Below, piece after piece: positions 11,711-54,802 of a stretch of DNA of 64,000 nucleotides. A model generated the notes under the pieces. That model ran no database searches. It was not told the origin of the DNA and worked only from the letters and a program-made list of their open reading frames with translations. Each line of letters begins with the position of its first letter. Within the stretch, counting starts at the first letter, position 1. Source of the stretch: Cupriavidus consociatus (lineage in GTDB: Bacteria; Pseudomonadota; Gammaproteobacteria; Burkholderiales; Burkholderiaceae). The DNA lies in NCBI RefSeq assembly GCF_017814975.1, contig NZ_JAGIQA010000010.1:124001-188000 (forward strand), read 5' to 3'. The position numbers were made by a program, and so were the translations under genes.

Positions 11711-11715
11711 AGGGG

Positions 11716-11930
11716 GTCCCCGCCTCGGCCGCTGGGTCGGCATCCTGAACCCAAGTGAGGTTCAGAGTGGCTGCGGAAGTCGCATTTCGGGTACATCATC
11801 CACTCAGGGAGTCCAAGCCAGGCCCGGACTATGAATGCGACGACGCGCTCGCCCACGCGACATGATCCCGCACCATGCAATGCATATCGGTTCAAGGAGT
11901 TTATGACCCTCACGAACCAGGCAGGGAAAC
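11716..11930 (-). ncRNA. ssrS: 6S RNA
   Basis: Reading leftward from about 11930, a 5' segment TTCCCTGCCTGG pairs with the 3' segment CCGAGGCGGGGA as a closing stem. Inside lie TTGAACCGATAT, matching GAGCCGATAT of E. coli 6S, and the small hairpin CTGAACC-tcactt-GGGTTCAG, matching TTGAACC-AA-GGGTTCA of E. coli. A stem of GTCGCATT with AATGCGAC forms the apical arm. The gene lies just downstream of zapA, the usual place for ssrS. 6S RNA mimics an open promoter and binds sigma-70 RNA polymerase in stationary phase. Ends are estimated from pairing; about 215 nt is somewhat longer than the E. coli RNA. Confidence 0.8.
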
Positions 11931-51805: not shown

Positions 51806-52372
51806 ATGAGCATCAAATCCGACAAATGGATCCGCCGCATGGCGGAGCAGCACGGCATGATCGAGCCGTTCGAGCCAGGCCAGGTCCGGGAGGCCGACGG
51901 GCGCAAGATCGTGTCGTACGGCACTTCGAGCTACGGCTACGACATCCGCTGTGCCGACGAATTCAAGATCTTCACCAACATCAACAGCACCATCGTCGAC
52001 CCGAAGAATTTTGACGAGAAGTCCTTCGTGGACTTCAAGGGTGATGTCTGCATCATTCCGCCGAATTCCTTTGCGCTGGCGCGGACGATGGAATATTTCC
52101 GCATCCCGCGCAGCGTGCTGACCATCTGCCTGGGCAAGAGCACCTACGCGCGTTGCGGCATCATCGTCAACGTGACCCCGTTCGAGCCGGAATGGGAAGG
52201 TTATGTGACGCTGGAGTTTTCCAACACCACGCCGCTGCCCGCCAAGATCTACGCCGGCGAAGGCTGCGCCCAGGTGCTGTTCTTCGAAAGCGACGAAATC
52301 TGCGAGACCTCGTACGCCGACCGGGGCGGCAAGTACCAGGGTCAGCACGGTGTCACACTGCCGAAGACCTGA
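51806..52372 (+). CDS. dcd: dCTP deaminase
   Basis: A 188-residue dCTP deaminase converting dCTP to dUTP, the main source of dTTP precursor in many Gram-negative bacteria. Motifs include [22 protein letters not shown] at the N-terminus, [44 protein letters not shown] (seen as KSTYARCG and PFEPEWEG with the catalytic glutamate) and [12 protein letters not shown] at the end. Length is typical. A TACAAT box at 51760-51765 about 40 bases upstream may be its -10. Confidence 0.96.
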
Positions 52373-52378
52373 TCGCAT

Positions 52379-52531
52379 TACAATGCCGGCGTTTGCCGGA
52401 AGGGCCGCTGCGCGATGACCGCGCGGGGCGCCCAGACCTGACGTGAGAGCCACATGTCGCCGTCGCAGGGGAACCCCTGCCGGCCATGTGGCTCAAGTCC
52501 TTTATGTCCTGCTTTCCATCAAGGATGCCCG
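52379..52531 (+). promoter_or_regulatory. Candidate promoter and structured 5' leader of the decarboxylase gene
   Basis: TACAAT at 52379-52384 is a candidate -10. The following ~140 bases hold several hairpins: CCGGC-gttt-GCCGG near 52386, GCGCG-atgac-CGCGC near 52411, and a long stem at 52447-52494. In the last, GAGCCACATG pairs with CATGTGGCTC, GCCG with CGGC and GCAGGGG with CCCCTGC around an aa loop: 21 base pairs interrupted only by two 2-base bulges on one side. No T-run follows, so it is not a plain terminator. It ends about 35 bases before the decarboxylase ATG. Confidence 0.6.
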
Positions 52532-54802
52532 ATGAAATTCCGCTTCCCCGTCATCATCATTGACGAAGACTTCCGCTCCGAGAACATCTCAGGCTCGGGC
52601 ATCCGCGCGCTGGCCGAGGCGATCGAGAAAGAGGGCATGGAGGTCATGGGGCTGACCAGCTACGGCGACCTGACGTCATTCGCGCAGCAGGCCAGCCGCG
52701 CCTCGACCTTTATCGTGTCGATCGACGACGATGAGTTCGTGCGCGACGACGACCAGCCCGAAGCCGCCGCGATCGAAAAGCTGCGCGCCTTCGTTACCGA
52801 AGTGCGCCGCCGCAACTCTGACCTGCCGATCTTCCTCTACGGCGAAACCCGCACCTCGCGCCATATCCCCAACGATATCCTGCGCGAGCTGCACGGCTTC
52901 ATCCATATGTTCGAGGACACGCCAGAGTTCGTCGCGCGCCATATCATCCGCGAGGCCAAGGTCTACCTGGACACGCTGGCGCCGCCCTTCTTCAAGGCGC
53001 TGATCGACTACGCGCAGGACAGCTCGTATTCGTGGCACTGCCCGGGCCACTCGGGCGGCGTGGCGTTCCTGAAAAGCCCGGTTGGCCAGGTGTTCCACCA
53101 GTTCTTCGGCGAGAACATGCTGCGCGCCGACGTCTGCAATGCGGTGGACGAACTCGGCCAGCTGCTCGACCACACCGGTCCGGTGGCCGCGTCGGAGCGC
53201 AATGCCGCGCGCATTTTCAACTCGGACCACATGTTCTTCGTCACCAACGGCACCTCGACGTCGAACAAGATGGTGTGGCACGCCAACGTGGCCCCGGGCG
53301 ATATCGTGGTGGTGGACCGCAACTGCCACAAGTCGATCCTGCACGCGATCATGATGACGGGCGCGATTCCCGTGTTCCTGATGCCGACGCGCAACCACTA
53401 CGGCATCATCGGCCCGATCCCCAAGAGCGAGTTCGATCCCGAGACCATCCGCCGCAAGATCGCCAACCACCCGTTCGCCAGCAAGGCCAAGAACCAGAAG
53501 CCGCGCATCCTGACGATCACGCAAGGCACCTATGACGGCGTGCTGTACAACGCCGAGCAGATCAAGGAAATGCTGGCGGCCGAGATCGATACGCTGCATT
53601 TCGATGAAGCGTGGCTGCCGCACGCAGCGTTCCACGACTTCTATCGCAACATGCACGCGATCGGTAAGGACCGCCCGCGCAGCAAGGACGCGCTGGTGTT
53701 CGCCACGCAGTCCACGCACAAGCTGCTGGCCGGCCTGTCGCAGGCCTCGCAGATCCTGGTGCAGGATTCCGAGACGCGCAAGCTGGACCGCTACCGGTTC
53801 AACGAGGCGTACCTGATGCACACCTCGACCAGCCCGCAGTACTCGATCATCGCCTCGTGCGATGTGGCCGCGGCGATGATGGAAGCCCCGGGCGGCACCG
53901 CGCTGGTGGAAGAGAGCATCCAGGAGGCCATGGACTTCCGGCGCGCCATGCGCAAGGTGGAGGGCGAGTACGACGCCGGCCAAAACGGCGACTGGTGGTT
54001 CAAGGTCTGGGGTCCGGAGGCGCTGATCGAAGATGGCATCGGCGATCGCGAAGAGTGGATGCTGAAGGCCAACGAGCGCTGGCACGGCTTTGGCGACCTG
54101 GCCGACGGCTTCAACCTGCTCGACCCGATCAAGGCCACCATCATCACCCCGGGCCTGGACGTGGATGGCGAGTTCAGCGAGCGCGGCATTCCGGCGGCGA
54201 TTGTCACCAAGTACCTGGCCGAGCACGGCATCATCATCGAGAAGACGGGCCTGTACTCCTTCTTCATCATGTTCACCATCGGCATCACCAAGGGCCGCTG
54301 GAACTCGCTGGTGACCGAGCTGCAGCAGTTCAAGGACGACTACGACCAGAACCAGCCGCTGTGGCGCGTGCTGCCAGAGTTCGTCGGCAAGTATCCGCAG
54401 TACGAGCGCATGGGCCTGCGTGACCTGTGCGATGCCATCCACAGCGTGTACAAGGCCAACGACGTGGCGCGGGTGACCACCGAGATGTACCTGTCGGACA
54501 TGGAGCCGGCGATGAAGCCGTCGGATGCGTGGGCCATGATGGCGCACCGCGAGATCGAGCGCGTGCCGGTCGACGACCTCGAAGGCCGCGTCACTGCCAT
54601 CTTGCTGACGCCGTACCCGCCGGGCATCCCGCTGCTGATCCCGGGCGAGCGCTTTAACCGCACCATCGTGCAGTACCTGAAGTTTGCACGAGAGTTCAAC
54701 AAGCTGTTCCCGGGCTTCGAGACCGATATCCACGGGCTGGTGGAGGACGAGGTGGACGGCAAGACAGCTTATTTCGTCGACTGCGTGAAGCAGTTAGCCT
54801 GA
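52532..54802 (+). CDS. Ornithine/lysine/arginine decarboxylase
   Basis: A 756-residue fold-type I PLP decarboxylase of the large Orn/Lys/Arg group. An N-terminal receiver-like wing domain (residues ~1-130) is followed by the catalytic domain with SYSWHCPGHSGGVAF near 165, FVTNGTSTSNKMVWH near 235, DEAWLPHAAFHDFY near 355 and the PLP lysine in STHKLLAGLSQASQIL near 395, then the C-terminal domain. Whether the substrate is ornithine, lysine or arginine cannot be settled here. It follows dcd and a structured leader. The ATG at 52532 is preferred over one at 52454 that lies inside the leader hairpin. Confidence 0.92.
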   Translation: MKFRFPVIIIDEDFRSENISGSGIRALAEAIEKEGMEVMGLTSYGDLTSFAQQASRASTFIVSIDDDEFVRDDDQPEAAAIEKLRAFVTEVRRRNSDLPIFLYGETRTSRHIPNDILRELHGFIHMFEDTPEFVARHIIREAKVYLDTLAPPFFKALIDYAQDSSYSWHCPGHSGGVAFLKSPVGQVFHQFFGENMLRADVCNAVDELGQLLDHTGPVAASERNAARIFNSDHMFFVTNGTSTSNKMVWHANVAPGDIVVVDRNCHKSILHAIMMTGAIPVFLMPTRNHYGIIGPIPKSEFDPETIRRKIANHPFASKAKNQKPRILTITQGTYDGVLYNAEQIKEMLAAEIDTLHFDEAWLPHAAFHDFYRNMHAIGKDRPRSKDALVFATQSTHKLLAGLSQASQILVQDSETRKLDRYRFNEAYLMHTSTSPQYSIIASCDVAAAMMEAPGGTALVEESIQEAMDFRRAMRKVEGEYDAGQNGDWWFKVWGPEALIEDGIGDREEWMLKANERWHGFGDLADGFNLLDPIKATIITPGLDVDGEFSERGIPAAIVTKYLAEHGIIIEKTGLYSFFIMFTIGITKGRWNSLVTELQQFKDDYDQNQPLWRVLPEFVGKYPQYERMGLRDLCDAIHSVYKANDVARVTTEMYLSDMEPAMKPSDAWAMMAHREIERVPVDDLEGRVTAILLTPYPPGIPLLIPGERFNRTIVQYLKFAREFNKLFPGFETDIHGLVEDEVDGKTAYFVDCVKQLA

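Follow-up and report, generated by a model that had tools for sequence, protein, structure and literature searches.

Locus and leader structure

The window, that is, the whole 64,000-nucleotide stretch of Cupriavidus consociatus DNA that was analysed, contains a structured leader between the dCTP deaminase gene dcd and a gene encoding an Orn/Lys/Arg decarboxylase. The features of this locus, with the evidence for each, are the following:

51806..52372, plus strand: dcd, dCTP deaminase, the upstream neighbour (Pfam PF22769 and NCBIfam TIGR02274, above cut-off)
52379..52384, plus strand: TACAAT, putative -10 box of the leader promoter (recurrence of the box across gaps)
52386..52399, plus strand: small hairpin 1 (fold)
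52402..52433, plus strand: small hairpin 2, variable in sequence and length in relatives (fold; variability by eye)
52447..52456, plus strand: invariant 5' arm GAGCCACATG (the same in 56 of 59 gaps, which are those with the element)
52457..52484, plus strand: inner part, composed of a 2-base bulge, a 4-bp stem, a 2-base bulge, a 6-bp stem and a GAAC loop (21-29 bases and variable in relatives)
52485..52494, plus strand: invariant 3' arm CATGTGGCTC (comparison across gaps)
52497..52502, plus strand: anti-Shine-Dalgarno GTCCTT (complementary at 6 of 6 positions, G-U allowed, to AAGGAT at 52521-52526)
52521..52526, plus strand: Shine-Dalgarno (SD) AAGGAT (sequence; RNAalifold consensus pairing with the anti-SD)
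52532..54802, plus strand: Orn/Lys/Arg decarboxylase gene (PF01276, PF03711 and PF03709; best PDB match 6q6i_A)

The main hairpin (52447-52494) has a minimum free energy (MFE) of -34.4 kcal/mol, compared with a mean of -16.8 kcal/mol for dinucleotide shuffles (z -6.06, with 0 of 200 shuffles as good), and the whole leader (52379-52531) is also more stable than its shuffles (z -4.35, again 0 of 200). The hairpin is real and not a chance fold. An initial annotation of this DNA had described it as a 48-base element with a stem of 21 base pairs and two small bulges. The fold and the bulges are confirmed, the latter being TC at 52457-52458 and TC at 52463-52464, both on the 5' strand, whereas the number of pairs has to be corrected to 20 (10+4+6), closed by a GAAC loop. 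The same annotation was right in placing two smaller hairpins and a TACAAT box ahead of the main hairpin, and its estimate of about 35 bases from the hairpin end to the start codon is close to the 37 bases measured up to the ATG at 52532. It had also reported that no T-tract follows the hairpin, in agreement with a terminator scan that returned 0 terminator-like sites in 52300-52560; the hairpin does not have the make-up of an intrinsic terminator, in which a GC-rich stem is followed at once by a run of T.

The leader had not been assigned to any RNA class that could be named, and a scan against Rfam release 15 agrees with this, as no family matched it at the gathering threshold and the best match at E values up to 10 was RAGATH-25, with 15.1 bits versus 49. 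Elsewhere in the window (11713-11930, minus strand), the scan matched 6S RNA (RF00013) with 47.3 bits, the gathering score being 46.4.

Distribution of the hairpin

The hairpin is widespread in Cupriavidus. A plain DNA search with the gap, which did not demand exact arms, matched 54 of 60 genomes of the genus, and exact arms are present in all 54. The inverted-repeat pattern GAGCCACATG-N12-42-CATGTGGCTC is found in 56 of the 60, at one locus each, while the reversed control pattern gave 0 matches in the same genomes; 54 of these 56 had thus come in through DNA similarity and two through the exact-arm pattern. Protein-based checking of the six genomes missed by the DNA search found exact arms in two, no such hairpin in three and no match in one. 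The decarboxylase gene is present and the hairpin absent in G029, G034 and G048, and the hairpin is therefore not indispensable; G047, which is 54% complete, has no decarboxylase match. In hairpinless G048 the decarboxylase match contains one TAG. All 56 genomes that have the hairpin carry it between dcd and the decarboxylase gene.

Beyond the genus, a family sample of 249 genomes contains the exact-arm pattern in 29, all of them among the 30 sampled Cupriavidus, and in 0 of the 219 genomes from other genera. A covariance model applied to 72 loci without exact arms (68 outside the genus and the 4 of hairpinless Cupriavidus) returned nothing convincing, the best E value being 0.43. Within the window's genome, the DNA search, a relaxed pattern and the covariance model all point to a single place, and the covariance-model hits elsewhere have E values of 0.98 or worse, excepting the same place on the opposite strand. 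The window contains 3 copies of the half-site GAGCCACATG with one mismatch at most, fewer than the 6.89 expected by chance, and two of these copies belong to the hairpin itself. No plasmid relatives were found at E 1e-5. A REP-like or other repeat element was considered and rejected, given that 56 of the 60 genomes have a single locus instead of the many copies expected of such an element.

Some gaps contain additional sequences. Two loci (L033 and L034) have a large inverted repeat with ATTCCCGCCTGCGCGGGAATGACG, which differs by one base in L034, between the promoter box and the hairpin, and the hairpin downstream of it is untouched. We take this repeat to resemble the dRS3-type repeats of Neisseria. 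In G012, an intact hairpin is located 129 bases from the ATG, with a GC-rich inverted repeat, recognised by eye, lying between them.

Invariance of the arms and pairing of the inner part

The full gap was read in 59 genomes, 56 of which have the hairpin, in 40 distinct sequences. The two 10-base arms, 20 positions in all, show no difference among the 56, and none of the 59 gaps contains a version with altered arms. Substitutions were counted on a tree built from neighbouring coding sequence. On this tree, 21 fourfold sites at the start of the decarboxylase gene show a mean of 3.2 changes (0 to 11, with none at 2 of the 21), the 8 bases ahead of the hairpin 3-11 changes each, the 8 bases after it 0-6 and the inner positions examined 0-11, the value for the arm positions being 0 by definition of identity. 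The constraint extends slightly inwards: the GC directly ahead of the 3' arm is also fixed (56 of 56), and the G preceding it is present in 55 of 56; the base facing the fixed GC, inner position 3 of the 5' strand, is less constant, with G in 51 of 56. These counts have to be read against a genus that is little diverged at the decarboxylase start (mean pairwise identity 0.92), where 113 of the 162 positions after the start codon are also invariant, with a longest invariant run of 11 bases. What sets the arms apart is that they are non-coding, mutually paired and located amid variable surroundings. Judging from these comparisons, very strong purifying selection acts on the hairpin in 56 of the 60 sampled Cupriavidus genomes.

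As the arms never vary, their ten pairs yield no covariation for pairing. The inner part (21-29 bases) varies yet pairs, with 93.6% of cells paired compared with 30-42% in controls with slid partners. Of five measures, three lie above every one of the 500 shuffles, namely the cells paired, the both-side changes (15 versus 4.1) and the covariation score (0.089 versus 0.053), whereas the pairs changed on both sides (4 versus 2.7) were reached by 103 of 500 shuffles and the further pair types (10 versus 7.9) by 46 of 500; these inner-stem counts are rough, since the underlying alignment (A1) is a plain sequence alignment that is imperfect in the divergent inner stems. Among the 40 hairpins, the inner part alone beats composition shuffles moderately (1 to 83 of 200 as good), and in four dissimilar representatives the inner-stem pairing reaches a Fisher p of 0.013. 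The initial annotation had named a lack of conserved pairing in relatives as grounds for giving up its reading; with the hairpin present in 56 of 60 genomes the reading survives, though the invariant arms contribute no covariation to it. The number of unpaired bases beside the arms (5', 3') is (2,0) in 35 of the 40 distinct hairpins, (2,1) in 3 and (1,1) in 2. This bulge is mostly one-sided, and the element therefore has a strand direction.

The adjoining anti-Shine-Dalgarno tract

One or two bases 3' of the hairpin lies a short tract, GTCCTT, GTCTTT or GTTCTT (GTCCAT in G012), which is complementary to the SD sequence (AAGGAT or GAGGAC). Allowing G-U pairs and trying eight offsets, 6 of 6 positions match in 15 of 15 distinct combinations versus 0.75 expected from shuffles of the same 14 bases, although the combinations are related by descent and are not 15 independent cases. 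They omit the G012 locus (L177) and L018, where the SD lacks a G, both of which were included in the count per genome: here the best match in 54 of the 56 genomes covers 6 of 6 positions; of the other two, the one with a G missing from its SD reaches 4 of 5 and the other 5 of 6. In an RNAalifold consensus of 49 distinct rows, with a linker in place of the hairpin's inner part and based on a flank alignment that leaves out L033, L034 and L177, the anti-SD/SD helix was chosen. The helix is short and absent from the MFE fold of the window's leader, where GACGTGA pairs with TTATGTC instead. A leader with two states might account for this alternative pairing.

Putative promoter box and probable transcript start

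A box of the form [TC]A[CGT]AAT, followed by GC, CC or AT, is present near the dcd stop in 57 of the 59 gaps, and it reads TACAAT in 48 of the 57. Its offset from the dcd stop is 5-6 bases in 48 cases and 16-22 in 9. In L121, one of the two gaps that do not match, the sequence is CACAAT with TC after it; no TACAAT-like box was found in the G012 gap. A scan of 52300-52560 returned no promoter-like hexamer pair. From the conserved box, the transcript most likely starts a few bases 3' of it.

Proposed mechanism

The reading that we favour, with belief and doubt about evenly balanced, is that the hairpin is a cis-acting leader element of the decarboxylase mRNA, present genus-wide in Cupriavidus, that would be read by a factor and would set access to the SD sequence. 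Transcription would begin just past the TACAAT-like box that follows dcd, and the nascent leader would fold into the two variable hairpins and then the invariant one, after which the short tract one or two bases past it would pair with the SD. The lower 10-bp stem and the mostly one-sided bulge would provide the docking site for a specific trans-acting factor; the fixed sequence of both arms makes a protein the probable candidate. Once bound, this factor would either stabilise the neighbouring SD-sequestering helix, possibly stacked on the hairpin stem, or release it, and would in this way determine the level of decarboxylase translation. Control by RNA structure had already been suggested in the initial annotation, and it gains support from the hairpin conserved in the gap of 56 of 60 genomes together with the adjoining, conserved anti-SD/SD complementarity. 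The response to polyamines or amino acids that the annotation offered as an example is conjecture.

With regard to its class, the leader shows the sequence traits of a protein-binding cis-regulatory RNA, that is, a hairpin of fixed sequence near the SD at a single locus. A protein-binding element appears likelier than a small-molecule riboswitch because what is conserved amounts to one hairpin with invariant arms and the anti-SD tract, while the upstream hairpins vary by eye. The invariant bases are mostly in the paired arms; a small-molecule riboswitch would be expected to have an aptamer with conserved unpaired bases and to bind a ligand. A bolder version, which we put forward tentatively and consider doubtful, is that the arms and the bulge are recognised by a dedicated RNA-binding protein, which might be the decarboxylase itself, and that this protein feeds back on its own translation via the anti-SD helix. 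If this were true, it would represent a stem-specific control of amino-acid decarboxylation or polyamine synthesis that works with neither an aptamer, a leader peptide nor a terminator. Nothing in the open-licence papers searched was recognised as dealing with the decarboxylase leader of Cupriavidus, and the main text of a start-site study of C. metallidurans (PMC7563307) does not contain the word decarboxylase. As a leader that is absent from Rfam and has a fully invariant stem in one genus, the Cupriavidus element offers a tractable single-locus system for direct tests of a possible RNA-based control of amino-acid decarboxylation.

Alternative explanations

The hairpin could also belong to the gene upstream, as the 3' end of the dcd mRNA, either terminator-like or processed and exonuclease-blocking, and be situated before the decarboxylase only secondarily. 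Its position 41-156 bases past the dcd stop is compatible with this, as is G012, where it stays near dcd and far from the ATG, and in Burkholderia/Paraburkholderia and Pandoraea a different hairpin occupies the place and is followed by T-rich sequence (e.g., GTTCTTTTT, GTTTTTTT) up to the SD. However, the window's gap has no terminator-like site, a plain terminator has no need of 20 invariant bases, the adjoining anti-SD is conserved, and in the other genera the T-rich tail lies so near the SD that a transcript with an upstream start would need to read through the tail; we regard this explanation as fairly unlikely. Alternatively, the arms may form an inverted repeat that a regulator of the decarboxylase promoter binds as DNA, which would explain why they are fixed in sequence beyond mere pairing, why both half-sites read GAGCCACATGNC in most genomes (the left one in 53 of 56) and why the repeat is downstream of the putative -10. 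This reading is a little less probable still. A DNA operator is disfavoured by half-site spacings that range from 21 to 29 bases (22 versus 27 amounts to about half a helical turn) and by an inner part that stays paired with a mostly one-sided bulge, and since each genome has one copy, whole sites do not add up to a regulon. The hairpin could instead be a 5' structure, insensitive to any signal, that stabilises the decarboxylase mRNA or is processed by RNase III. This would fit the very stable stem and the other hairpins upstream in the leader, but stability alone permits compensatory changes in the arms and the 40 distinct hairpins contain none, so that this explanation has a low likelihood.

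The remaining two explanations are less likely still. A free-standing small RNA ending at the hairpin would match the promoter-like box and the compact structured region of about 105 bases; there is no T-tract, however, nor a second genomic location, and the position before the decarboxylase is fixed, which makes it very improbable. The least credible is that a leader peptide starting at an ATG within the stem (MWLKSF...) controls the decarboxylase. The invariance of ATGTGGCTC and the MWLKSF start in 40 of 55 readings would agree with it, yet the reading frame is not constant with respect to the gene (29, 17 and 10 of 56), the C-terminus shows no conservation, six genomes have MWLSP... instead, no SD was seen ahead of the stem ATG, and the Leu codon is always CTC while dcd and the decarboxylase gene use CTG in 55 of their 62 Leu codons. 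A stem leader peptide was rejected on the basis of this codon use and of the two stem ATGs, which show no conserved frame and the second of which yields a peptide with no conserved C-terminus.

Comparison with other genera and known systems

Hairpins of other designs are found in the same gap outside Cupriavidus. A stem of the GACCGC...GCGGTC type precedes the decarboxylase in 32 of 52 loci (L066-L117), and in Burkholderia, Paraburkholderia and Caballeronia the stem is followed, by eye and by fold, by GTTC or GTTT and a T-rich stretch up to the SD (GGAG). The typical hairpin of this Burkholderia group, GACCGCTG...CAGCGGTC, has similar arms and a loop that varies, and its T-rich tail runs directly up to the SD; together with this tail, it possibly constitutes an attenuator. 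The Pandoraea-type loci L107 and L111 contain GAGCCAG...CTGGCTCGTTTTTTT. A terminator scan scored neither of the two examples from other genera that were tried on the sense strand. The best simple hairpins reach -9 to -12 kcal/mol in four Ralstonia loci, and range from none to -18 kcal/mol in ten loci of the Polynucleobacter group.

The Burkholderia/Paraburkholderia/Caballeronia and Pandoraea loci thus share with Cupriavidus a strong hairpin in the dcd-decarboxylase gap, with pyrimidines and the SD directly after it and with arms that are, by eye, similar within a lineage. They differ from Cupriavidus in the stems themselves (GACCGCTG/CAGCGGTC and GAGCCAG/CTGGCTC, respectively) and in the T-rich tail, which gives them a terminator- or attenuator-like appearance by eye. 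This suggests that the gap often holds a hairpin just before the SD, which perhaps acts by attenuation in some genera and in another mode in Cupriavidus. Hairpin designs in this gap differ between genera: those of the Burkholderia group and Pandoraea look like terminators by eye, and the four Ralstonia loci folded have no stem of comparable strength. This makes the gap a place where a shift in the way a leader acts could be followed.

Regulatory leaders of comparable genes have been described in other bacteria. The control of speF operates via a translated leader ORF. The speF leader of Salmonella has regulatory elements before an ornithine decarboxylase gene (PMC6386406), and the Cupriavidus leader resembles it in that such elements lie ahead of a gene for an Orn/Lys/Arg-type decarboxylase. 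Unlike speF, the Cupriavidus leader has no conserved ORF from its two stem ATGs and no Rfam match. A different parallel is offered by the autoregulatory leaders of ribosomal-protein genes, such as the mRNA structure before rpsF (PMC4647458). Although the gene in Cupriavidus encodes a metabolic enzyme and the protein partner is putative, the reading of an mRNA structure before a gene by a specific protein, as in the ribosomal-protein leaders, is the pattern proposed here for the Cupriavidus decarboxylase leader.
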